Source: Xinfangfangia pollutisoli
Lineage (GTDB): Bacteria; Pseudomonadota; Alphaproteobacteria; Rhodobacterales; Rhodobacteraceae
NCBI RefSeq assembly: GCF_020179405.1
Contig: NZ_JAICBZ010000024.1
Span: 1 to 48,092 of the forward strand
Reading direction: 5' to 3'
DNA length: 48,092 nucleotides
Of this stretch, positions 2,298 to 16,810 are shown one piece after another. A program made the translations under genes and the position numbers. How positions within the stretch are numbered: the first letter of the stretch is position 1; each line of letters begins with the position of its first letter. The notes beneath the pieces are model-generated. The model was not told the DNA's origin and did no database searches. It saw only the letters and a list, made by a program, of their open reading frames with translations.

Positions 2298-4190
2298 ATG
2301 CCACCAAGAAAGGCATTTGCACATTCTGGATATGACCTTGTTGCGCGAAGCGACTGGCAAGATCTTGAAGAACACCTTCAGGCGACAGCAGAACTTGCCG
2401 AAGCCCGCGGCTCCCGATTTGGTCTGGGGAAAACCGCAGGGCTTGCGGCCCGATGGCATGATCTCGGGAAATATGACCCGGCCTTCGATCGAATCCTCTG
2501 CGGAGAAGCGGTGCGCGTCGATCACTCGACTGCCGGCGGGCGGTTGGTTCTGGATCGGGCGACGCCCCTGACGCGCTACGCCGCCGAAGTTCTGGCCTAT
2601 GCCATTCTCGGGCATCACGCCGGTTTGCCAGACCGGCGTGGGTCTGAGGCGAGCCTCCAGAACCGGATCGACAGTTCTGTCGACAAGCTTCCTGCCGACA
2701 TCGCCGCCGCACCAGTCGATCTAATGCCCGCGCTGAAAGAACTGTCGGCGCGGAGCTTCCGCGACCGGCGCGATCCGCGTTCCCTTTCACCAGCAGACCT
2801 GAAGCAGCGGACGCAGCAGGAGGCTTTCGATCTGTCGGTCGCCGGGCGTATGGTGTTTTCCTGTCTGGTGGATGCCGACTTCCGCGATACCGAAGCTTTT
2901 TACGATCGTCTTGAGGCGCGTCTGCGTGATCGGGACTGGCCCGTGCTGCAGAGCATCCTTCCGCAACTGACGCAGGCCTTCGACGCGAAAATCGCCGGCT
3001 TCTCAGCCACAGGCGATCTGAACCGCCTTCGCGCCGGAATCCTGGCGCATGTCCGCGCCAAAGCCGAGATGGCGCCCGGCCTTTTTACCTTGACCGTGCC
3101 GACGGGCGGCGGAAAGACGCTGGCTTCGATGGGGTTTGCGTTAGACCATGCGGCAAAGTATGGCCACCGCCGGATTATCTATGCAATTCCCTACACCTCG
3201 GTGATCGACCAGACCGCCGAGATCTTCCGAAATCTCTTCGGTGATGTCGTCCTGGAGCATCATTCCAGCATCGACGAGGAAAAGCCGGGGGCTGAACAGC
3301 GCGACAAGCTGCGCCTTGCGATGGAGGATTGGGCCGCCCCGATCGTGGTCACGACCAATGTGCAGCTTTTCGAAAGCCTGTTCGCGGCCCGCCCCTCACG
3401 CTGCCGCAAGCTGCACAATATCGCGGGCTCGATCATTGTTTTGGACGAGGCACAATGCCTGCCGCGCAAGCTGCTGCTGCCGGTGCTGCGGATGCTTGAT
3501 GCGCTTGCGGTGCAGTATGGCTGTTCGATCGTCCTTTGCACCGCCACGCAGCCCGCTTTCGACAGTCGACAGTTGCAGACCGGAGGCTTGCCTCTGGCTG
3601 GCCGCGAGCTGGCGCCCGACCCCGAAGAGCTGGCCCGCCAGCTGCGCCGGGTGACGATCCTTCGGGCTGGCGAGATGGACGATGCCGCATTGGTTGAGGC
3701 ACTTGGTGGCGCGCCGCAGGGCATGGTCATCGTCAACAGCCGCGCCCATGCTCTGGATCTCTTCGAAGCGGCAAGGGCTGCGGGATTGGACGGGGTGATC
3801 CATCTGACGACCCGCCAATATCCCGCCCATCGGCGCCGGGTTATCGCCGAGATCCGACAGAGGCTGGACGCAGGCCTACCCTGTCGCTTGATTGCGACCA
3901 GCCTGATCGAGGCGGGGATCGACCTGGACTTTCCGATCGGGTGGCGCGCGGAAGCCGGGCTCGATTCCTGCGTGCAGGCTGCGGGGCGGGTCAACCGGGA
4001 AGGCAAGCGGCCGGTGATGACCAGCACATTGACCATCTTCTCGGCACCCGGTCGGCCGATGCCGAACGAGATCCGGGTACTTGCTCAGGCGATGACTGGC
4101 ACGGCCGCGCGCTTTGCGGGCGATCTGCTGGCGCCTGAGGCGATCCGCGACTGGTTTGAGCATGTCTACTGGCGCGCCGGCGTTACATAG
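2298..4190 (+). CDS. cas3: Cas3 HD nuclease-helicase, N-terminal 630 residues, ended by an in-frame amber codon
   Basis: Cas3 is recruited by type I Cascade to nick and unwind target DNA. The HD nuclease part shows His26, the HD pair His54-Asp55 in WHDLGKY, DH at 75-76 and HH at 106-107 in LGHHAG. The helicase part has Walker A PTGGGKT at 268-274, DEAQ at 383-386, TATQP near 415-419 and the motif VI-like QAAGRVNREGK. All catalytic motifs are therefore present. The frame stops at a TAG at 4188-4190, and the same frame then continues without another stop to 4580 with the family's C-terminal domain. A full product would be about 760 residues, the usual I-C Cas3 size. So either this is a loss-of-function nonsense mutation, or Cas3 is made in two pieces or by readthrough. 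It heads the cas operon. Confidence 0.9.
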   Translation: MPPRKAFAHSGYDLVARSDWQDLEEHLQATAELAEARGSRFGLGKTAGLAARWHDLGKYDPAFDRILCGEAVRVDHSTAGGRLVLDRATPLTRYAAEVLAYAILGHHAGLPDRRGSEASLQNRIDSSVDKLPADIAAAPVDLMPALKELSARSFRDRRDPRSLSPADLKQRTQQEAFDLSVAGRMVFSCLVDADFRDTEAFYDRLEARLRDRDWPVLQSILPQLTQAFDAKIAGFSATGDLNRLRAGILAHVRAKAEMAPGLFTLTVPTGGGKTLASMGFALDHAAKYGHRRIIYAIPYTSVIDQTAEIFRNLFGDVVLEHHSSIDEEKPGAEQRDKLRLAMEDWAAPIVVTTNVQLFESLFAARPSRCRKLHNIAGSIIVLDEAQCLPRKLLLPVLRMLDALAVQYGCSIVLCTATQPAFDSRQLQTGGLPLAGRELAPDPEELARQLRRVTILRAGEMDDAALVEALGGAPQGMVIVNSRAHALDLFEAARAAGLDGVIHLTTRQYPAHRRRVIAEIRQRLDAGLPCRLIATSLIEAGIDLDFPIGWRAEAGLDSCVQAAGRVNREGKRPVMTSTLTIFSAPGRPMPNEIRVLAQAMTGTAARFAGDLLAPEAIRDWFEHVYWRAGVT

Positions 4191-4202
4191 CTTGGCCAGC
4201 TG

Positions 4203-4580
4203 ATGGTTGAGCAATTCGGTCTTTCCCGCAGCGGAACGGATTTTGCTTTTCGCAGCGTTGCGGCGCAGTTCCGCATGATCGAAAGCGCGATGGTCCCGGT
4301 GATCGTCCCCCTTGATCCCGAGGCCGCGGACTGGGTGGAGAAGCTGGGGCTTGCGCAGATCCCGTCCAGCCTGATCGCCCGCAAGCTTCAGGCTCATACG
4401 GTGCAGGTGCCGGCGAAAGCGCGGGCGATCATGCGGGAAAACGGCAAGGGAACCTTCCGCAATCCCGATCTGCGCGGCGATCAGTTTTTCGTCCTGTGCG
4501 ATCCGTCGCTTTACCGCGAGGATATTGGGCTTTGGTGGGAAAGTGCCGAATATCTGTCGCTGGAAGAAAGTGTGATTTGA
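4203..4580 (+). CDS. Cas3 C-terminal domain, separated from cas3 by the amber codon
   Basis: The frame after the TAG at 4188 is the same as that of cas3. It encodes the family's conserved end: GTDFAFRSVAAQFRMIES, VPVIVPLDPEA, VQVPAKARA, and a final WWESAEYLSLEESVI. The first usable ATG is at 4203, twelve bases after the stop, with no strong ribosome binding site, so a 125-residue fragment could be made only by reinitiation or weak internal initiation. In intact Cas3 the C-terminal domain lies over the helicase core and contributes to DNA handling and Cascade contact. Whether the two halves could work together is unknown. Confidence 0.75.
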   Translation: MVEQFGLSRSGTDFAFRSVAAQFRMIESAMVPVIVPLDPEAADWVEKLGLAQIPSSLIARKLQAHTVQVPAKARAIMRENGKGTFRNPDLRGDQFFVLCDPSLYREDIGLWWESAEYLSLEESVI

Positions 4581-4731: not shown

Positions 4732-5430
4732 ATGGCTTACGGAATACGCCTGCATGTATGGGGCCGCTACGGCCTTTTCACGCGCCCCGAGATGAAGGTG
4801 GAACGGGTTTCCTATGACGTGATGACGCCATCGGCCGCGCGCGGCGTGCTTGAGGCGATCCACTGGAAACCGGCGATCCGCTGGGTGATTGATCGGATCC
4901 ATGTGCTGGAGCCGATCCGCTTCCAGTCGATCCGGCGCAATGAGGTGGGGCACAAGGCCCCGGCCGGGAATATCAAGCGGGCGATGAACCGTGGCGATCT
5001 GGAAGGGCTGCAGATCCTTGTCGATGAAGATCGCCAGCAGCGTGCCTCGACCGTTCTTGTCGCGCCCGCTTATGTGATCGAGGCGCATTTCGAGCTGACC
5101 GCAAAGGCGGGTGCCGAGGATACGGAAGGCAAGCATCTTGATATATTCAACCGCCGGGCGGCGCGGGGGCAGTGCTTTCACCAGCCTTGCCTCGGCACCC
5201 GGGAATTCGCCGCCAGCTTCGCCCTGATCCCGCCCGATGCGCCGCTGCCTTTCCGCGATCCCCAGGCCGAAACCGCCGATCTTGGCTTCGGCACGCCGCG
5301 CGATCTGGGCTTCATGCTTTGGGATATCGACCACGCCGCCCCGGGCCGCCCCTCGCTTTTCTTCCGCGCCGGCCTGCGCGATGGCGTGATGGAGGTGCCG
5401 GGGCCAGACAGTGCCGAGGTGCGGCGATGA
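4732..5430 (+). CDS. cas5c: Cas5c (Cas5d), crRNA-processing endoribonuclease of type I-C
   Basis: In subtype I-C, which lacks Cas6, Cas5c cuts the pre-crRNA at the repeat hairpin and then stays on the 5' handle in Cascade. The 232-residue protein has the family's N-terminal LHVWGRYGLFTRPEMKVER, the SYDVMTPSAARGVLEAIHW segment, the central GKHLDIFNRRAARGQCFH and the PCLGTREF motif. Lys134-His135 are the likely counterpart of the catalytic Lys-His pair described for the Bacillus halodurans enzyme. The position where that enzyme has a catalytic Tyr seems to be His44 here; this alignment is from memory and uncertain. The stop overlaps the cas8c ATG by four bases (ATGA). Confidence 0.93.
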   Translation: MAYGIRLHVWGRYGLFTRPEMKVERVSYDVMTPSAARGVLEAIHWKPAIRWVIDRIHVLEPIRFQSIRRNEVGHKAPAGNIKRAMNRGDLEGLQILVDEDRQQRASTVLVAPAYVIEAHFELTAKAGAEDTEGKHLDIFNRRAARGQCFHQPCLGTREFAASFALIPPDAPLPFRDPQAETADLGFGTPRDLGFMLWDIDHAAPGRPSLFFRAGLRDGVMEVPGPDSAEVRR

Positions 5431-7172
5431 GCCTTCTTGCCGCGCTGGTCCGCGCCTATGACCGCCTGCCGGACGCGCCGCCTTTCGGGTTTTCTTCCGA
5501 AAAGATCGGATTCTGCGTGGTGTTGGCCCGGGATGGCGCGGTCGCCGAGGTGGTCGACCTGCGCGACAGCGACAAGAAACGCAGCCCCAGGATGCTGATG
5601 GTGCCGCAGGCCCGGAAGCGCACGGTCGGCATCGCCCCGAATTTTCTGTGGGACAAGACCGCCTATGTCCTCGGCGTGACCGCGGGCGAGGGCAAACGCA
5701 CCGCCGAAGAACATGCGAAATTCCGCGCGCAGCACTCGGAATGGCTTGCCGGGACCGAGGATCCGGGCCTGCTGGCCTTCCTGCGGTTTCTTGAAACCTG
5801 GACACCCGAAACCTTCGCGCCGCCGCTTTGGCCAGACGATTTGCGCGACCAGAACCTGGTTTTCGCGCTGGCTGATGAATACCGAGACCGCTTCCTTCAG
5901 GATCGGCCCGCAGCGAAGGCGCTTTGGCGGCAGATCGGTGCCGAAGCGGCTTCGGACCCGCAGATCTGCCTCGTGACGGGCGAGCCGGGGCCGGTCGCGC
6001 GTCTGCACCCGTCCGTGAAAGGGGTCTGGGGCGCGCAATCCTCGGGCGCCAGCCTCGTTTCCTTTAACCTCGATGCCTTCACCTCTTACGGCCACGAACA
6101 GGGCGACAATGCCCCGGTCTCAGAGGCAGCGGTCTTTGCCTATACCACTGCGCTCAACCGCTATTTGGAAAAGGGCAGCGGTCATCGCATCCAGATCGGC
6201 GATGCCTCGACGGTGTTCTGGGCGGATGCCAGCGATCTTGAAGATGCTGCCGAAGCTGAGGTCATGTTTGCGGCCTTTTTTGACTCGGCCGGCGAAGACA
6301 GGGCCGCGACGGCGATCGTCGCCGACAGGCTTGCGCAGATCAGGGACGGCCGGCGGCTGGCCGAGATCGCCCCGCGGCTGGACAAGGGGGTACGGTTTTA
6401 CGTTCTGGGGCTTGCCCCCAATGCCGCCCGGCTGGCGGTGCGCTTCTACTGGGAAGATGATTTCGGCGCCCTGACCGCGAACTATCAAAGGTTCCTCTCC
6501 GACACCCGGCTTGAGCCGCCGCCTCGTGATGGCTGGCCGGCGCTCTGGCGCTACTTGCGCGACATCGCGGTGCTAGGGAAATCGGAGAACGTGCCGCCCA
6601 ATCTGGCTGGCGAATGGATGCGCGCGATCCTGACCGGCACGCCCTATCCCCTAACGCTGATGACGGCGGCGCTGATGCGTCTGCGCGCCGATGGCGATGC
6701 CAATGCGCTGCGCGTGGCGCTGCTGAAATCCGTCCTGATCCGCAATTTCAAACTGGAGGTTCCCGTGGCGCTCGATCCCGCCAATACGAACAAGGGCTAT
6801 GCCCTTGGCCGGCTGTTCGCCGTCTACGAGGAAGTCCAGCGCGCCGCCCTGGGCGGCAATGTGAATGCCACCATCAAGGACAAATTCTATGGCGCGGCCT
6901 CGGCCGCCCCGCAAAAGGTGTTTGCCGCGCTGAATTCAGGCTCTCAGCCGCATTTCTCGAAGCTGAAAAAGCAAAGCCCCGGCCGCGCCGTCAATCTGGA
7001 GCGGCTTCTGATGACGATCACCGATCTGATGGAGGCGGGAAACGACCCGATCCCCGCCTCGCTGTCCAGTCAGGAACAGGCGCTGTTCGGCATCGGATAT
7101 TACCACCAGCGCAGCGATTTTTTCCGCAAGCATGACGCCGGCGCCACCCCCTCGACGGAGACCGAAGAATGA
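5427..7172 (+). CDS. cas8c: Cas8c (Csd1), large subunit of type I-C Cascade
   Basis: This 581-residue protein begins MSLLAALVRAYDRLPDAPPF, the typical Csd1 opening. I chose the ATG at 5427 because it overlaps the cas5c stop in an ATGA and matches the family start; the frame is open further upstream only as an overlap with cas5c. Cas8c recognises the PAM and helps open the target. Text such as PNFLWDKTAYVLGV and FNLDAFTSYGHEQGDNAPVSE matches conserved Csd1 segments. The last 135 residues form the small-subunit-like region that can also be translated alone from a start at 6765. The stop overlaps the cas7c ATG by four bases. Confidence 0.93.
   Translation: MSLLAALVRAYDRLPDAPPFGFSSEKIGFCVVLARDGAVAEVVDLRDSDKKRSPRMLMVPQARKRTVGIAPNFLWDKTAYVLGVTAGEGKRTAEEHAKFRAQHSEWLAGTEDPGLLAFLRFLETWTPETFAPPLWPDDLRDQNLVFALADEYRDRFLQDRPAAKALWRQIGAEAASDPQICLVTGEPGPVARLHPSVKGVWGAQSSGASLVSFNLDAFTSYGHEQGDNAPVSEAAVFAYTTALNRYLEKGSGHRIQIGDASTVFWADASDLEDAAEAEVMFAAFFDSAGEDRAATAIVADRLAQIRDGRRLAEIAPRLDKGVRFYVLGLAPNAARLAVRFYWEDDFGALTANYQRFLSDTRLEPPPRDGWPALWRYLRDIAVLGKSENVPPNLAGEWMRAILTGTPYPLTLMTAALMRLRADGDANALRVALLKSVLIRNFKLEVPVALDPANTNKGYALGRLFAVYEEVQRAALGGNVNATIKDKFYGAASAAPQKVFAALNSGSQPHFSKLKKQSPGRAVNLERLLMTITDLMEAGNDPIPASLSSQEQALFGIGYYHQRSDFFRKHDAGATPSTETEE
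6765..7172 (+). CDS. cas11c: Cas11c small subunit from an internal GTG start inside cas8c
   Basis: Type I-C systems are known to make a separate small subunit (Cas11c) from an internal start within cas8c. Here a perfect GGAGG lies at 6755-6759, followed after five bases by an in-frame GTG at 6765. The product would be 135 residues starting at the VALDPANTNKGYALGRLF segment, which is just where the helical small-subunit region of Csd1 begins. It continues through NATIKDKFYGAASAAPQ and ends with cas8c. Several copies would line the crRNA backbone and stabilise Cascade on DNA. The start is inferred from the site and from what is known of the subtype. Confidence 0.7.
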   Translation: MALDPANTNKGYALGRLFAVYEEVQRAALGGNVNATIKDKFYGAASAAPQKVFAALNSGSQPHFSKLKKQSPGRAVNLERLLMTITDLMEAGNDPIPASLSSQEQALFGIGYYHQRSDFFRKHDAGATPSTETEE

Positions 7173-8122
7173 CCACGCTTTCCCGCCGCCACGATTTCGT
7201 GCTGATCTTCGACGTGACGAATGGCAATCCGAATGGCGATCCCGACGCCGGCAATCTGCCGCGGCTTGACCCCGAGACCAATCACGGCCTGGTCTCTGAT
7301 GTCAGCCTGAAACGCAAGATCCGCAACTATGTGGAACTTGCCCGCACCGGCCAGGATGGGTTCCACATCTACGTGGAAGAGGGTGCGATCCTGAACGATA
7401 AGCATCGTCAGGCCTATGTCGCGCTGCGCCCTGACGACCCGAAGGCGCAGAAAGAGCCGAAGCTGAACCCGAAAGATGATGCCGAAGCGATCCGCCTGCG
7501 CGACTTCATGTGCCGGAACTTCTTCGACGTGCGCACCTTCGGGGCGGTGATGTCCACCGGCATCAATTGCGGCCAGGTCAAGGGCCCGGTCCAGATGACC
7601 TTCGCCAGTTCAGTCGAGCCGATCCTGCCGGTCGAGATCACCGTGACCCGGATGGCCGCGACGAACGAGGCCGAAAAGAAGAAAACGGCCGAGGGCGCCG
7701 ATGGCGACCAGCGCAGCGACAATCGTACCATGGGCCGCAAACATATCGTTCCCTATGGCCTTTACGTCGCGCATGGCTTCATCTCGGCCAAATTCGCCGA
7801 ACGGACGGGCTTTTCCGACGCCGATCTCGATCTTCTGTTCGAGGCGCTGGTCTCGATGTTCGAACATGACCGCTCGGCCGCGCGCGGCGAGATGACCACC
7901 CGCAAGCTGGTCGTCTTCCGCCACGAGAACGCCTTGGGCAATGCCCCGGCGCATGTGCTGTTCGACCGGGTGAAGATCGGCCGCAACGTGGATGGCGCGT
8001 TTCGAGATCTTGACGACAAGGGGCTTGGCAACCTGGCGCCGGCCCGCAAGTTCTCGGATTACATGGTGAAGATCGACCAGGAGGATCTGCCGTCGGGCGT
8101 CGAGATCCTGGACCTGGCCTAG
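7169..8122 (+). CDS. cas7c: Cas7c (Csd2), backbone subunit of type I-C Cascade
   Basis: Cas7c polymerises along the crRNA spacer and forms the body of the complex. The 317-residue protein carries the hallmark FDVTNGNPNGDPDAG near residue 14, then SDVSLKRKIRNYV, FFDVRTFGAVMSTG and GQVKGPVQMTFASSVEPI, all conserved in Csd2. Later motifs include GRKHIVPYGLYVAHGFIS. The ATG at 7169 overlaps the cas8c stop (ATGA), implying translational coupling. Length is normal for the family, about 290-320 residues. Cas4 follows after two bases. Confidence 0.95.
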   Translation: MTTLSRRHDFVLIFDVTNGNPNGDPDAGNLPRLDPETNHGLVSDVSLKRKIRNYVELARTGQDGFHIYVEEGAILNDKHRQAYVALRPDDPKAQKEPKLNPKDDAEAIRLRDFMCRNFFDVRTFGAVMSTGINCGQVKGPVQMTFASSVEPILPVEITVTRMAATNEAEKKKTAEGADGDQRSDNRTMGRKHIVPYGLYVAHGFISAKFAERTGFSDADLDLLFEALVSMFEHDRSAARGEMTTRKLVVFRHENALGNAPAHVLFDRVKIGRNVDGAFRDLDDKGLGNLAPARKFSDYMVKIDQEDLPSGVEILDLA

Positions 8123-8124
8123 AC

Positions 8125-8772
8125 ATGCCGGCCGAAGAGGACCCCATACCCCTCTCGGCCTTGCAACATGCGGTCTACTGCCTGCGCCAGGCCGCGCTGA
8201 TCCATATCGAAAGGCTTTGGGCCGAGAACCGCTTCACCGCAGAAGGCGATGTCCTGCATGCGGTCGCCGACAAGGGCGGCAGTCGGAAGATGCGGGGGCT
8301 GCGGCGGGTTCTGGCGCTGCCGCTTGCCTGCCGGCGGCTGAACCTTTCTGGCACGGCGGATCTGGTGGAGTTCCTGCCGGGCCCGGCGGGCGAGACGGCT
8401 TTTCCCGTCGAATACAAGCGCGGCAAGCCGAAGCTGCATCGCGCCGATGAGGTGCAGTTGTGCGCGCAGGGCCTGTGTCTGGAAGAGATGACCGGTCAGC
8501 CCGTTCCCGAAGGCGCGCTGTACTATGCTGAAACCCGCCGCCGCGTGACCGTGCCCTTCGACGCCGATTTGCGCCGGTTGACCGAAGCCACCGTGGCCGA
8601 TCTGGCCGCCCTCTTTGCCAGCCGCATGACGCCGCCGCCGACACCGCATAAAAGCCGCTGCCGCGCCTGTTCGCTGATTGACCTATGCCGGCCCGAAACT
8701 TTCGCCCGGCCGGTCAGGCAATGGCGCGACCGAATGGTCGAAAAGGCGCTGGCGCCCGGGGCCTCGGAATGA
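8125..8772 (+). CDS. cas4: Cas4 RecB-like Fe-S exonuclease
   Basis: Cas4 trims prespacers and selects those with a correct PAM during adaptation, working with Cas1-Cas2. This 215-residue protein shows the Fe-S cluster cysteines Cys19 (VYCLRQ) and Cys179, Cys182 and Cys188 (SRCRACSLIDLCRPE). The RecB-nuclease residues are His45, Asp79 (GTADLVEF), Glu96 and Lys98 (VEYKRGK) and Gln111. All key residues are present, so the enzyme looks active. It starts two bases after the cas7c stop and its own stop overlaps the cas1 ATG. Confidence 0.93.
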   Translation: MPAEEDPIPLSALQHAVYCLRQAALIHIERLWAENRFTAEGDVLHAVADKGGSRKMRGLRRVLALPLACRRLNLSGTADLVEFLPGPAGETAFPVEYKRGKPKLHRADEVQLCAQGLCLEEMTGQPVPEGALYYAETRRRVTVPFDADLRRLTEATVADLAALFASRMTPPPTPHKSRCRACSLIDLCRPETFARPVRQWRDRMVEKALAPGASE

Positions 8773-9803
8773 AGAAGCTTCTCAATACCGTCTATGTGAC
8801 CAGCGAAGGTGCCGCCCTGAAAAAGGACGGCGAAAACCTGGTGGCCGAGGTCGAAGGCGCCGAGAAGGCGCGGGTGCCGCTGCACATGTTGGCCTCGATT
8901 GTGGTTTTCGGGCCGATCCTGGTCTCGCCGGCGCTGATCGGTGTTTGTGCCGAACGCGGGATCACGCTGGCGCTTCTGGATCGTGCCGGCCGGTTCCAGG
9001 CCCGGATCGAAGGGCCGGTCAGCGGCAATGTCCTTTTGCGCCGCGCGCAGTACCGCCTGGCCGACCGGGCCGAGGATGTGGTGCGCTCGATCGTCATGGG
9101 AAAGATCGCCAATCAGCGCGCGGTGATCCGTCGCGCCTTGCGCGACTATGGTGACGAGATGCCGTCCGAGACGCGCGACGCCCTTGCTGCCGCGACTGAA
9201 CGCATGGCGATGATTCTGCGACGGGTGCAGCTGAAGGATGAGACAGTCGATCTCATGCGCGGCTCGGAAGGCGAGGCGGCGACGCTGTATTTTGGTGTGT
9301 TCGGCCATCTTATCCGTTCTCCAGATGCCGAGTTGCGCTGGACCGGCCGCTCGCGCCGTCCACCGCTGGACGGGATGAACGCGCTTCTATCCTTTCTTTA
9401 CACGCTGCTGACCCATGACTGCCGTTCCGCCTGCGAAGCGATCGGGGTGGATCCTGCCGTCGGCTTCCTGCATCGCGACCGGCCCGGCCGGCCAAGCCTG
9501 GCTCTTGATCTGATGGAGGAATTGCGCGCGCCGCTGGCCGACCGGCTGGCGCTGTCGCTGGTCAACCGCCGCCAGCTGCGGGCTGGCGACTTTCGGCGGA
9601 TGGAGGGCGGCGCGGTTCTGATGACCGATGACGCGCGCCGACTGGTGCTGACCGCCTGGCAAGAGCGCAAAAGGGAAGAGCGTCTGCATCCTTTCCTGCA
9701 GGAAAAGGCGCCCTTCGGTCTGGTGCCCTATCTTCAGGCGCAGATGCTGGCCCGCCATTTGCGCGGCGATATCGACGCCTATCCGCCCTGGTTCTGGAGC
9801 TGA
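8769..9803 (+). CDS. cas1: Cas1 integrase
   Basis: Cas1 with Cas2 inserts new spacers at the leader end of the array. The ATG at 8769 overlaps the cas4 stop (ATGA) and gives the family opening [20 protein letters not shown], so this start is preferred over longer readings. The 344-residue protein has the N-terminal beta domain and the helical catalytic domain with Glu167 (RGSEGEAA), His235 ([18 protein letters not shown]) and Asp247/Glu250 as metal ligands. Size and motifs are those of an active type I-C Cas1. The stop is one base before cas2. Confidence 0.95.
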
Positions 9804-9804
9804 G

Positions 9805-10095
9805 ATGCTGGTGCTTGTCACCTATGATGTGAACACGTTGGAGGACGGCGGTAAGAAGCGCTTGCGGCGCCTGGCCCGCGCCTGCGAAGATTTCGGCCAG
9901 CGGGTTCAGTTTTCGGTATTTGAAATCGAGATCGACCCCGCGCAATGGGCGAAACTGAAGGCCAGGATCGAGGGGATTATTCGTTCGGACGTCGACAGCC
10001 TTCGCTATTATTATCTTGGCAGCAATTGGTCTCGGAAAGTCGAGCATGTCGGGGCGAAACCGTCGACCGATCTGAACGGGCCTCTCATCGTCTGA
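9805..10095 (+). CDS. cas2: Cas2 adaptation protein
   Basis: Cas2 dimers bridge the Cas1 dimers in the spacer-integration complex. The 96-residue protein opens [20 protein letters not shown], with the usual Asp8 of the ferredoxin-like fold, and continues with [16 protein letters not shown] and [11 protein letters not shown], as in I-C Cas2 proteins. It is the last cas gene, separated from cas1 by one base and from the first repeat by 190 bases of leader. Confidence 0.95.
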
Positions 10096-10285: not shown

Positions 10286-13261
10286 GTCGCCCCTTCGCGG
10301 GGGCGTGGATCGAAACCGCCTTCTATATTGCGAGGTGGTTGCTCTCCCCGTGTCGCCCCTTCGCGGGGGCGTGGATCGAAACTTGATGAACACCGCCATT
10401 CAGAGGCCCGGGGAGCGTCGCCCCTTCGCGGGGGCGTGGATCGAAACGCGCATCATCGCGGTCGCGCATATCTGTGCCGCGGTCGCCCCTTCGCGGGGGC
10501 GTGGATCGAAACGCGTCCTCCCATTTCCGCCGCCGGTCCTCCCTGTCGTCGCCCCTTCGCGGGGGCGTGGATCGAAACAGCCGGACACCGTGCATATTCT
10601 CGGCTTCGGGGTGTCGCCCCTTCGCGGGGGCGTGGATCGAAACGCGATGCTTTTCTGCCATTCGTTCTGTCGGCACGAGAGTCGCCCCTTCGCGGGGGCG
10701 TGGATCGAAACAAGACCTTCGGCGCAACTGAGGCGCTGATCAATCAGGTCGCCCCTTCGCGGGGGCGTGGATCGAAACACTGTTCCAACGGCAACGCGGG
10801 CAGCGAGTGTTTGTCGCCCCTTCGCGGGGGCGTGGATCGAAACACCATGCGCTTGGCGCCGATCGCGCCGGACGGGGTGTCGCCCCTTCGCGGGGGCGTG
10901 GATCGAAACGGCCGGCCGGTCAGCTTTTCCCAGCGGCGCACCATGGTCGCCCCTTCGCGGGGGCGTGGATCGAAACTTCTACGAGCGGCAAGACGGCGGG
11001 CTGGGGTTTGTCGCCCCTTCGCGGGGGCGTGGATCGAAACTCTGTTCGGGTGGAAGCGAGAGAACGGGAAGCGGCGGTCGCCCCTTCGCGGGGGCGTGGA
11101 TCGAAACAGGCCGATCTGGGTTGCCGCAATGGCCCCATCCGGTCGCCCCTTCGCGGGGGCGTGGATCGAAACTTTACGACCACATCTAACCACCGGGGCT
11201 GCCGATGTCGCCCCTTCGCGGGGGCGTGGATCGAAACATCGACAGCATCACCGTTGCCGGTCGCCTGTGCGTCGCCCCTTCGCGGGGGCGTGGATCGAAA
11301 CCCAAATCCAGATCAGAAGTGGAAGCCGGGTCAAGTCGCCCCTTCGCGGGGGCGTGGATCGAAACCTTTCAATCTGCATTGCAAACTCCCGCGTTTCCTG
11401 TCGCCCCTTCGCGGGGGCGTGGATCGAAACGCCGCAGATCCGACGCTCTTTGGTACCGTCGCTCAGGTCGCCCCTTCGCGGGGGCGTGGATCGAAACGAC
11501 ATTGGCCGAGCCGCGCACCGGGCTGTGCTGGGTCGCCCCTTCGCGGGGGCGTGGATCGAAACCAGTTCTGGTTGGCGTCGCAAACCTGCGATGCCGGTCG
11601 CCCCTTCGCGGGGGCGTGGATCGAAACCCGACACCAATGCCGCCATCCGTGGGGGCAACCAGTCGCCCCTTCGCGGGGGCGTGGATCGAAACGCCGATGA
11701 TAAAGGGCTCAAAGCAGGTATTCGGTGGGTCGCCCCTTCGCGGGGGCGTGGATCGAAACGGCCGAAGGTCCCCTTCGGTGTGCGAGACCAGAGTCGCCCC
11801 TTCGCGGGGGCGTGGATCGAAACTCATGAAAAACTTCATTCAGCGCGGCGAGGTTGGTCGCCCCTTCGCGGGGGCGTGGATCGAAACACCGGCACCGAAA
11901 CCGCCGCGGCCAAGACCCGCGCGTCGCCCCTTCGCGGGGGCGTGGATCGAAACAACCCGGTGGGGACATTGTAGAAGGTGTTGCCGGTCGCCCCTTCGCG
12001 GGGGCGTGGATCGAAACACGGCGTGGTGGCAAGGGCCTGGCAAGGATCGGCGCGTCGCCCCTTCGCGGGGGCGTGGATCGAAACCATGCCTTTAGCCTCG
12101 GGCCGTCCGGGCCGCAGTCGTCGCCCCTTCGCGGGGGCGTGGATCGAAACCCCGGAATGGCATGACCGTCGAAGCCGAACGAAAGGTCGCCCCTTCGCGG
12201 GGGCGTGGATCGAAACAGCTGGAACGGCCGGACCGGATGATGACGCAGCCGGTCGCCCCTTCGCGGGGGCGTGGATCGAAACAGCAAGGATACCGGCCCG
12301 GTCATACGCGGCTGCAGGTCGCCCCTTCGCGGGGGCGTGGATCGAAACATGGTCATGCCTGCCGCACCGCCGGCGGCTGCACGTCGCCCCTTCGCGGGGG
12401 CGTGGATCGAAACGCCTTCAGAGGCGCGGGCGCGCCAAAGGAACCGACGTCGCCCCTTCGCGGGGGCGTGGATCGAAACCTGCCAGTCCAGCCGCGGGTC
12501 GCGCACCTTCGGCGGTCGCCCCTTCGCGGGGGCGTGGATCGAAACTCGCTGCCCGGCCCCTCAGGGACGCCGCGCGCCGTCGCCCCTTCGCGGGGGCGTG
12601 GATCGAAACGTCGCCGAACCGGACGAAGGAATACATCCCCGGCAGTCGCCCCTTCGCGGGGGCGTGGATCGAAACTTGCCGAGGTGATAGGCCAGATCGT
12701 GCGCCGCGTCGCCCCTTCGCGGGGGCGTGGATCGAAACAATTCGCGCGCCGGCATGGACTTGGCAGGGTCCGTCGCCCCTTCGCGGGGGCGTGGATCGAA
12801 ACACCTCCGCGGCCTGGACGATCAGGCCGACCGCGTGTCGCCCCTTCGCGGGGGCGTGGATCGAAACGACATGTCTCTCTGTCTGGACGATCTGCCGCGC
12901 CGTCGCCCCTTCGCGGGGGCGTGGATCGAAACACCTCCAGAGCCGAGGCGTCGAGCTGTTCCAGCGTCGCCCCTTCGCGGGGGCGTGGATCGAAACACCG
13001 TCACCAGCTGGCTCAAGGAGGCCGCATGAATGGTCGCCCCTTCGCGGGGGCGTGGATCGAAACACCCAGCAGGACGGGTCGTTTTCCCAATAGTCGCCCG
13101 GTCGCCCCTTCGCGGGGGCGTGGATCGAAACCCCGGTGGCGCCCTCGATCGCCACCGGGGTCGCTGGTCGCCCCTTCGCGGGGCGTGGATCGAAACAGGC
13201 GCGAGGGGATCACCTTCTGGCTCCACTTCGGTCGCCCCTTCACGGGGGCGTGGATTCAAAG
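10286..13261 (+). CRISPR. Type I-C CRISPR array, 46 repeats and 45 spacers
   Basis: The repeat is 31 bases: GTCGCCCC, loop TTCGC, GGGGGCG, then TGGATCGAAAC. CGCCCC and GGGGCG form the hairpin cut by Cas5c, leaving a handle ending ATCGAAAC. I located 46 copies by position, at steps of 63-68 bases, so spacers are 32-37 bases. Copies 1-44 look identical by eye. Copy 45 (13167-13196) lacks one G of the G run. Copy 46 (13231-13261) has CACGG instead of CGCGG and ends GATTCAAAG, so it is the degenerate terminal repeat. All spacers differ from each other as far as I can see by eye, and no spacer clearly matches elsewhere in this window, though that check was not exhaustive. Long apparent open frames across the array are repeat artefacts. 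Confidence 0.98.
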
Positions 13262-13842: not shown

Positions 13843-13873
13843 TTGAAGCTCTAGTTGCTAGAGCATGTATCCC
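13843..13873 (+). promoter_or_regulatory. MerR-type promoter and operator of the metal ATPase gene
   Basis: A -35 box TTGAAG at 13843-13848 is followed after 19 bases by TATCCC at 13868-13873, the over-long spacing typical of MerR-activated promoters. Within the spacer lies the dyad GCTCTAG-TTG-CTAGAGC (13848-13864). The arrangement closely parallels the E. coli zntA promoter, which also has a dyad followed by GTGTATCC. This site shows that the ATPase start must be downstream of it, at 13927. Confidence 0.82.
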
Positions 13874-13926
13874 TGCGAATCGATGCAGACAAGTCGACCG
13901 GACCCAAGTCCGGGCAGGAGGCCGCG

Positions 13927-16194
13927 ATGCGCGAAGCGACGAAATATCAATGGACGGTCAGCGGCATGGATTGCGCCGCCTGCACCGTGAAGGTGACGAA
14001 GGCGGTCGAGCGGCTGCCGGGTGTCAGCGAGGTGAAGGTCGCGCTGATGAGCGAGCGTCTGTCGCTGGCGCTTGCCCCGGGGGCGACGGCGCCGGGCCAG
14101 GTGGAAGAGACGGTGCGCAAGCTGGGCTATCAGATCGCGCCGCTGTCCGACGGGGCGGGGGCGCGCAGCGGCGCGCGCGCGCATGTCCATGGTCCGGGCT
14201 GCGCCGGTCATGGCGCGACGGCGGATCATGACCATGATCACGATCATGACCACGGCCACGATCACGGCGCGGCGCCTGCGGCTGCGGGCCATCTGCATGA
14301 CGATCCGGCCGATCGCGGCAAGCCCTGGTATCGCAGCGGCAAGGGGCGGCTGGTGCTGGGCACCGGGCTGCTTCTGGCGCTGGCCTGGGGGTTCGAGCTG
14401 TTCGTCTCGGCCGAATATGGCGGCTGGGCCTTCGCGCTGGCCTGTGTCATCGGCCTTGCGCCGGTGGCGCAGCGGGCTTTCGCGGCGCTGCGTCTGGGCC
14501 AGCCCTTCACCATCGAAAGCCTGATGACCATCGCCGCGCTGGGTGCCCTGGTGATCGGCGCGGCCGAAGAGGCGGCTTTGGTCGTGTTCCTGTTCGCGGT
14601 GGGCGAGGTGCTGGAAGGCGTGGCGGCCGGCAAGGCGCGCGACAGTATCCGTGCCCTGGGCGATCTGGTGCCGAAGACCGCGCTTCTGGAACAGGACGGA
14701 CGCATAAGCGAGGTTCCGGCCGACAGTCTGCTGATCGGCCAGACCGTACTGGTGCGCCCGGGCGACCGGATCCCCGCCGATGGCGAGATCGTCGAGGGCA
14801 CAAGCGGCATCGACGAAAGCCCGGTCACCGGCGAAAGCGTGCCCGTCACCCGCGGCCCGGGGGCGGCGGTCTATGCCGGCGCGATCAACACCGAGGCTGC
14901 CTTGCGGATCCGCGTCAGCCGCGAACCCGCCGACAATACCATCGCGCGGATCATCCGCCTGGTCGAAGAGGCCGAAGAGGCGCGGGCGCCGACCGAGCGT
15001 TTCATCGACCGGTTCAGCCGCTGGTACATGCCCGCCATCGTCGCGGTCTCGGCGCTGGTCGTCCTGCTGCCGCCGCTGGCGCTGGGGCTGGACTGGCAGG
15101 TCTGGATCTATCGCGGCCTGGCGCTTCTGCTGATCGGTTGCCCCTGCGCGCTGGTGATCTCGGTTCCGGCCTCGATCGCCTCGGCCCTGTCTTCGGGGGC
15201 GCGGCGCGGGCTTTTGATGAAGGGTGGTGCTGTGATCGAGGCGGCGGCGGCGGTGCGGCGCATCGCCTTTGACAAGACCGGCACGCTGACCCATGGCAAG
15301 CCCGTCGTCACCGATCTGCGCCCCGCGCCCGATGTGGCGGAAGGCGATCTGCTGGCGGTGGCGGCGGCGGTCGAGGCCGGGTCCAGCCATCCGCTGGCCC
15401 AGGCGATCCTGCGCCGCGCGGACCAACAGGCGCTGGCGCCCCTGCCGGCGCGCGAGGCGCGGGCGATCCCCGGCAAGGGGGTTCAGGCGCTTGTGGAAGG
15501 CGCCCAGGCCTGGGTCGCCTCGCCCCGCCATGCGGCCGAGGCGGGCGGGCTGGCGCCGGCGCAGCAGGACGTGGCGCGCGCGCTGGAGGCCGAGGGCAAG
15601 ACGGTGGTCGCGGTCTTCCGCGAAGGCCAGCCGCTGGGCCTGATCGCGCTGCGCGACGAGCCGCGCGCCGATGCGGCCGAGGCGATGCGGCAATTGCGGG
15701 CGATGGGGATCGCTCCGGTCATCCTGACCGGCGACAATCCCCGCACCGCCGAGGCGATTGCCGGGCAGCTGGGCATGGCCTTCCGCGCCGAGATGCTGCC
15801 CGAAGACAAGCTGGGCGTGATCCGCGAGATGGCGGCCGAGGGCGGGGTGATGATGATCGGCGACGGCATCAACGACGCCCCGGCGCTGAAACAGGCGGGC
15901 GTGGGCGTCGCCATGGGCTCGGGCACCGATGTGGCGCTGGAAACCGCCGATGCGGCGATCCTGCGCGACCGGGTGCAGGATGTGCCGGCGCTGATCCGGC
16001 TGGCGCGGGCGACGATGGGCAATATCCGCCAGAATGTCGCCGTGGCGCTGGGGCTGAAGGCGGTGTTTCTGGTCACCTCGGTTCTGGGGCTGACGGGTCT
16101 GTGGATCGCGATCCTGGCCGATACCGGCGCAACGGTGCTGGTCACGCTGAACGCGCTGCGCCTGTTGCGCTTCGATCCGACGCGGGAGGGCTAG
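13927..16194 (+). CDS. zntA: Heavy-metal P1B-type ATPase, ZntA-like (Zn/Cd/Pb export)
   Basis: The 755-residue protein exports divalent metal across the inner membrane using ATP. It has an N-terminal heavy-metal domain with GMDCAAC (Cys16, Cys19), a striking His/Asp repeat at about residues 86-124 (HDHDHDHDHGHDHG), the transmembrane metal site Cys405-Pro-Cys407, the phosphorylated Asp449 in DKTGTLTHGKP, the SSHPLA motif and GDGINDAPAL. The last helices carry ADTGATVLVT with Asp732, the residue that marks Zn/Cd/Pb rather than Cu pumps. The ATG at 13927 is preceded by AGGAGG at 13916-13921; a longer reading would cover the promoter. It is controlled by the divergent MerR protein. Confidence 0.93.
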   Translation: MREATKYQWTVSGMDCAACTVKVTKAVERLPGVSEVKVALMSERLSLALAPGATAPGQVEETVRKLGYQIAPLSDGAGARSGARAHVHGPGCAGHGATADHDHDHDHDHGHDHGAAPAAAGHLHDDPADRGKPWYRSGKGRLVLGTGLLLALAWGFELFVSAEYGGWAFALACVIGLAPVAQRAFAALRLGQPFTIESLMTIAALGALVIGAAEEAALVVFLFAVGEVLEGVAAGKARDSIRALGDLVPKTALLEQDGRISEVPADSLLIGQTVLVRPGDRIPADGEIVEGTSGIDESPVTGESVPVTRGPGAAVYAGAINTEAALRIRVSREPADNTIARIIRLVEEAEEARAPTERFIDRFSRWYMPAIVAVSALVVLLPPLALGLDWQVWIYRGLALLLIGCPCALVISVPASIASALSSGARRGLLMKGGAVIEAAAAVRRIAFDKTGTLTHGKPVVTDLRPAPDVAEGDLLAVAAAVEAGSSHPLAQAILRRADQQALAPLPAREARAIPGKGVQALVEGAQAWVASPRHAAEAGGLAPAQQDVARALEAEGKTVVAVFREGQPLGLIALRDEPRADAAEAMRQLRAMGIAPVILTGDNPRTAEAIAGQLGMAFRAEMLPEDKLGVIREMAAEGGVMMIGDGINDAPALKQAGVGVAMGSGTDVALETADAAILRDRVQDVPALIRLARATMGNIRQNVAVALGLKAVFLVTSVLGLTGLWIAILADTGATVLVTLNALRLLRFDPTREG

Positions 16195-16195
16195 G

Positions 16196-16810
16196 ATGAT
16201 CGCGCCCTCCGGCTGGGCCGCTTTCGCGGCGCTGGGCCTGTATCTGGCGCTGTTCGCGCTGGGCACTCTGCGGCTGAGGGCGGCGGGGCAGCGGGTCTGG
16301 CTGTTTCCCGGCGCCAAAGGGGCCGACCGGCTGGCGGCGCTGGGCTTTCGCGCGGGCTTTGCACTGGCGGTCCTGGGCCCGCTTCTGTGGCGGGCGGTCC
16401 CCGCGCTGCACAGGGCCGATCCGCTGTGGCGCGACCTGCCGCAAACCGGGCTTGGCGCAGTTCTGGCGGCGCTGCTGGCCTGGGCCGGGGCGGGGCTGGC
16501 GCTGGTGGCGCAATCGGGCATGGGGGCCTCATGGCGGGTCGGCGTGGCGCAGGGTGCTGCGGGGCAATTGGTGACGGGCGGGCTGTTTTCGCTGTCGCGC
16601 AACCCCACCTTCCTGGGCCAGGTGCTGCTGCTGCTCGGTCTGGCGCTGGCCTTGCCCGCGCTGCCGACCCTGATTGCCCTGCTGCTGGTTCTGGCCGCGG
16701 CAAGCCTGCAGATCCGCAGCGAAGAGCGGCTGATGCTGGCCGCGCATGGCCCCGCCTATGCCGCCTATCAGCGCCGGGTGCCGCGCTGGATCGGTCTGCC
16801 GCGCCGGTAG
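16196..16810 (+). CDS. Membrane methyltransferase-like protein (ICMT/PEMT family)
   Basis: This 204-residue protein is mostly hydrophobic, with about five membrane segments. Its C-terminal half has FSLSRNPTFLGQVLLLLG and then SEERLMLAAHGPAYAAYQRRVPRW, the RNP...E..L...G..Y..Y..RV.R pattern of bacterial isoprenylcysteine carboxyl methyltransferase-like and phospholipid methyltransferase-like proteins. It starts one base after the zntA stop and so should be co-expressed with the metal pump. Such genes often sit beside metal exporters, but the substrate is not known. Confidence 0.75.
   Translation: MIAPSGWAAFAALGLYLALFALGTLRLRAAGQRVWLFPGAKGADRLAALGFRAGFALAVLGPLLWRAVPALHRADPLWRDLPQTGLGAVLAALLAWAGAGLALVAQSGMGASWRVGVAQGAAGQLVTGGLFSLSRNPTFLGQVLLLLGLALALPALPTLIALLLVLAAASLQIRSEERLMLAAHGPAYAAYQRRVPRWIGLPRR

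Follow-up and report, generated by a model that had tools for sequence, protein, structure and literature searches.

Type I-C CRISPR-Cas systems carry their genes in the order cas3-cas5c-cas8c-cas7-cas4-cas1-cas2. In other Cas3 proteins, the C-terminal domain (CTD) has been proposed to close the DNA channel and to contact Cascade. Where Cas3 is naturally split, as in the Cas3' and Cas3'' of other subtypes, it is the HD and helicase parts that lie on separate genes, a division that is conserved among relatives. For the Cas3 considered here, the nearest protein of known structure is the type I-C Cas3 of Neisseria lactamica, whose PDB entries 8zns and 8g9u were the best PDB matches of an intact relative by sequence and the two best fold matches of that relative's structure model. 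In the available portion of PMC11417383, in which 8G9U is the N. lactamica complex, this Cas3 is made up of HD, helicase, linker, and CTD. The N. lactamica protein is one uninterrupted chain, whereas in the locus described here a stop codon falls in the linker before the CTD. What such a loss would mean can be judged from both sides. Two residue changes in the CTD of the Bacillus halodurans type I-C Cas3 are cited in the same portion of PMC11417383 as abolishing nuclease activity; in N. lactamica Cas3, however, the CTD substitutions K779A and Q781A had no effect on dsDNA activity, ssDNA activity was lost in Q781A only, and the CTD alone did not bind DNA, with the precise role of the type I-C CTD left for future study. 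On this mixed evidence, loss of the CTD would probably cripple Cas3.

Natural disruption of CRISPR-Cas loci in which much of the locus is kept is described, in the sections available, for IS insertions in cas genes (PMC10359306) and for a type I-C locus of P. aeruginosa that a genomic island interrupts (PMC5136561). The premature stops shown in the available part of the latter report are not in cas3. Both of these precedents involve insertions, whereas the disruption here is a single stop codon. A limited literature search, drawing on partial texts, yielded no earlier published case of a type I-C cas3 interrupted here, and is weak evidence that there is none.

The locus lies on the forward strand of the window (the whole stretch of DNA that was analyzed, 48,092 nucleotides), which belongs to the 4.4-Mb draft genome of Xinfangfangia pollutisoli, assembled in 188 contigs. 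Its features are as follows.

2298..4190, + strand: cas3 upstream open reading frame (ORF), 630 aa from the ATG at 2298, with HD nuclease and both helicase lobes
4188..4190, + strand: in-frame TAG, mapped to the linker between helicase core and CTD by frame reading, relatives, alignment, and the model of a relative
4191..4580, + strand: cas3 frame beyond the TAG, 129 codons followed by TGA, assigned to the Cas3 CTD by tblastn, relatives, and alignment
4203..4205, + strand: in-frame ATG, 12 bases after the TAG, without a Shine-Dalgarno match in a simple scan; Met in 11 of 48 intact relatives
4732..5430, + strand: cas5c, looks intact (Pfam, NCBIfam)
5427..7172, + strand: cas8c (csd1), looks intact (Pfam, NCBIfam)
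7169..8122, + strand: cas7c (csd2), looks intact, ends with TAG (Pfam, NCBIfam)
8125..8772, + strand: cas4, looks intact (Pfam, NCBIfam)
8769..9803, + strand: cas1c, looks intact, its ATG overlapping the end of cas4 (Pfam, NCBIfam)
9805..10095, + strand: cas2, looks intact (Pfam, NCBIfam)
10286..13131, + strand: CRISPR array, 44 identical 31-base repeats and 43 distinct spacers (repeat analysis)
13167..13261, + strand: two degenerate repeats at the leader-far end of the array (repeat analysis)

All seven genes stand in the order cas3-cas5c-cas8c-cas7-cas4-cas1-cas2 with an adjoining array, and the type I-C signature gene cas8c/csd1 scored 583.4 bits against TIGR01863 (cut-off, 218.65). An earlier reading made from the sequence alone had described the remaining cas genes and the array as healthy, and both descriptions held up: each of the six genes covers most or all of its family profile, and repeat degeneracy is confined to the two leader-far copies. 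The gene set is that of the type I-C operon as listed in the available part of PMC5136561. As a separate observation, cas8c (5427-7172) shares 63% identity with its counterpart in one related locus (L003) and 75% with that in another (L007), while cas5, cas7, cas4, cas1, and cas2 share 81-88% with both; the contrast between L003 and L007 may reflect either rapid evolution of cas8c or its recombination in one lineage. Adjoining the array, a 916-codon ORF on the minus strand (13858-16608) has no Pfam match, and a long ORF is also present on the opposite strand.

From ATG 2298, which has GGAG 7 bases 5' of it, the cas3 frame runs to the TAG at 4188-4190. The sequence-only reading had noted this in-frame stop and counted 130 codons beyond it; the stop was found as described, but the frame, open over 4191-4577, holds 129 codons before the TGA at 4578-4580. 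Matches to the HD, DEAD-helicase, and Cas3 helicase C-terminal families (Pfam, NCBIfam) all lie upstream of the TAG, again as had been claimed. The upstream part accordingly has the HD and helicase motifs expected of a functional type I-C Cas3, but the CTD is not in the same chain, the TAG preceding it. The downstream piece has no family match of its own in Pfam or NCBIfam. Nevertheless, 41 of 42 related loci gave a tblastn alignment with it, 39 of them in the frame of the upstream part, and this argues that it is, as had been proposed, a genuine Cas3 CTD and not a chance open frame. Besides the TAG, no further lesion was found in the cas3 frame. A second Cas3 in the genome was looked for and not found, each genome search returning one match, and no Cas3 of >60% identity was found on plasmids.

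The comparison set consisted of 42 related type I-C loci taken from genome contigs, among which the closest Cas3 relatives came from Rhodobacteraceae, including Paracoccus. Ten Rhodobacteraceae loci (L002-L010 and L018, from Paracoccus, Gemmobacter, and metagenome-assembled genomes) each gave tblastn matches to all seven cas genes and share 62-70% identity with the upstream part of this Cas3; in all of them cas3 is one ORF, whereas here it is split by the TAG. Aligning Cas3 with type I-C relatives, the check that the sequence-only reading had proposed, showed that 39 of the 42 read through the stop site as one ORF, that the other 3 are broken elsewhere, and that none is cut at this point. Cas3 ending naturally here and followed by a separate CTD gene was likewise seen in 0 of the 42. 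The present arrangement also differs from the Cas3'/Cas3'' splits of other subtypes, since HD and helicase are fused here. Two of the broken relatives, L035 (2282-4518) and L039 (10001-12222), change frame before the stop site. In L035, cas7 too is spread over two frames and cas4 and cas2 are only partial, so this may be a poor contig; L039 retains the other six cas genes. In the third, L037 (239-1912), Cas3 homology is lost at query residue 580 within an ORF of 633 codons (stop to stop) that ends in an unrelated tail, and the stretch examined yielded neither a CTD nor a further cas gene; L037 thus looks like a solitary truncated cas3.

A wider search used the Cas3 of an intact relative (746 positions) against 394 genomes of the family, sampled from a larger group. 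It returned 28 matches, of which 19 cover at least 720 of the 746 query positions, 4 are partial, and 5 are weak and were taken for other helicases. Eighteen of the 19 near-full-length proteins contain no stop; only that of X. pollutisoli has an internal one, the single TAG. The four partial matches (G309:C28, G285:C273, G174:C227, and G351:C54), one with 2 in-frame TGA codons, would be broken genes or contig ends. Within the genus, this Cas3 occurs in 3 of 13 genomes, X. pollutisoli included, and in genus member G007 it is also uninterrupted.

To place the cut, the two window pieces were aligned with 48 intact relatives (39 of the 42 loci plus 9 genus or family genomes); the two sets may overlap in species, and L035, L037, and L039 were excluded as broken. 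At the stop column, these relatives carry eight different residues; the absence of a stop there follows from the selection of uninterrupted ORFs, and it is the variability that is informative. The column lies in a gappy stretch, so its exact position depends on the alignment. For the intact relative L003, a structure was modeled with an alignment of 23 rows chosen from the 39 intact loci; the mean pLDDT is 85.8. The stop corresponds to about residue 616 of this model, in the linker that joins helicase core and CTD, between a helix at 598-610 and the C-terminal elements. The sequence match of the intact relative to the N. lactamica PDB entries ends at query residue 656 of 746, soon after the stop point.

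The condition of the downstream piece bears on the age of the break. Against 23 chosen intact relatives, the window keeps 151 of 152 invariant columns upstream and 16 of 16 downstream. Downstream divergence is as the upstream part predicts, with a mean residual of -0.19 and per-relative means of -4.9 to +4.6 for the 23 relatives; the residual standard deviation over pairs of relatives is 5.3. With 16 invariant columns and a best upstream identity of 73%, this test is coarse and yields no date. Retention of the invariant residues together with the lack of excess divergence nevertheless indicates that the break is recent or that the CTD piece is still used, and long neutral decay of the piece appears unlikely on this evidence. 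A real and recent nonsense mutation in an ordinary type I-C cas3, which removed the CTD and disabled or weakened interference, is in our judgment probably what happened. It corresponds to the first of three options in the sequence-only reading (recent loss of interference with the rest kept, amber suppression, or reinitiation) and is the best supported of them, the loss of function itself being deduced from sequence. A working two-piece Cas3 would, however, show the same lack of decay.

A base error in the draft assembly, the living cell having an ordinary intact cas3, is unlikely but a real contender. A single wrong base would give exactly this picture, and both the draft state of the genome and an operon that otherwise looks intact, with no other lesion in the cas3 frame, fit with it. 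Against an error stand the completeness of the genome (99.77%, with 0.18% contamination), the absence of a homopolymer run at the TAG, and ten neighboring ORFs chosen from 56 of at least 200 aa, 9 of which match Pfam families and none of which is obviously broken; all three are indirect with respect to the base itself.

Alternatively, ribosomes might stop at the TAG and restart at ATG 4203, producing a 125-residue CTD that joins the helicase core as a two-part Cas3. The ATG is where the sequence-only reading had placed it, in frame and 12 bases past the TAG; the cut falls in a linker, and the CTD piece has not decayed. Coupled starts also seem to be used in this operon, as cas1 begins without a Shine-Dalgarno match in the same scan and overlaps the end of cas4, and the cas4 ATG comes two bases after the cas7 TAG. 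Yet no Shine-Dalgarno match precedes ATG 4203 itself, and none of the 42 relatives is divided at this point. Moreover, since 11 of the 48 relatives with an undivided Cas3 have methionine at this column, the ATG codon was probably inherited. We hold reinitiation of this kind to be quite unlikely, and give little credence to its functional form, a working two-chain Cas3 in which the 630-residue core receives the CTD in trans and activity is set by the frequency of ribosome restart.

Amber read-through or a suppressor tRNA yielding some full-length Cas3 is highly improbable and found no support: although the stop column tolerates many residues in relatives, so that a range of inserted amino acids might be functional, the anticodon CUA is absent from all 41 tRNA matches (an incomplete list), and cas7 in the same operon uses TAG as its ordinary terminator straight before cas4. 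ARAGORN named 40 of these matches, none CUA, and the 41st, at a contig start, was read by eye as CAU. The list is incomplete because tRNA-Tyr and tRNA-Ile (GAT) are missing from it, probably through an assembly or search gap.

The spacers offer a view of past activity. Compared with the related loci (~0.9 Mb), the 43 spacers gave one full-length match, the others being 15-20 bases long: spacer 19 (11498-11531) agrees at 30 of 34 bases with an array spacer of Paracoccus ravus (L007:11810-11843). With a viral contig (L101:2224-2257), found with a search pattern degenerate at four positions, spacer 19 likewise agrees at 30 of 34 bases, counted by eye, and TTC, the type I-C protospacer-adjacent motif, precedes the target in this one case. 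This match is in line with past anti-viral use of the array. Spacer 19 had no match among annotated phages, and spacer 1 had no exact match among viral contigs. A self-targeting spacer would show that interference is off. A whole-genome search with spacers 1-3 of the 43, allowing up to 3 mismatches, matched the array only and gave no self-target, and none of the 43 had a full-length match in the rest of the window among the matches listed.

Under the favored reading of a recent nonsense mutation, one such change would have severed the Cas3 chain in the linker that separates helicase core from CTD, where position, frame, and homology place the stop. Translation would then mainly yield a protein of 630 residues that has the HD nuclease and the helicase but lacks the CTD. 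Interference and Cas3-dependent primed adaptation would most likely be lost or strongly reduced, because all 39 uninterrupted relatives possess the CTD, for which a role in closing the channel and contacting Cascade has been proposed in other Cas3 proteins. With the array and the genes for Cascade and Cas4-Cas1-Cas2 apparently intact, the locus could still make crRNA, bind targets, and take up spacers by the naive route.

In sum, this may prove to be a further CRISPR locus that has been disabled, or an error in a single base. If the stop is real, however, X. pollutisoli would provide a naturally occurring Cas3 without its CTD, in a locus that otherwise looks intact, which could be used to probe the role of the type I-C CTD and to ask whether Cascade there binds without cutting.
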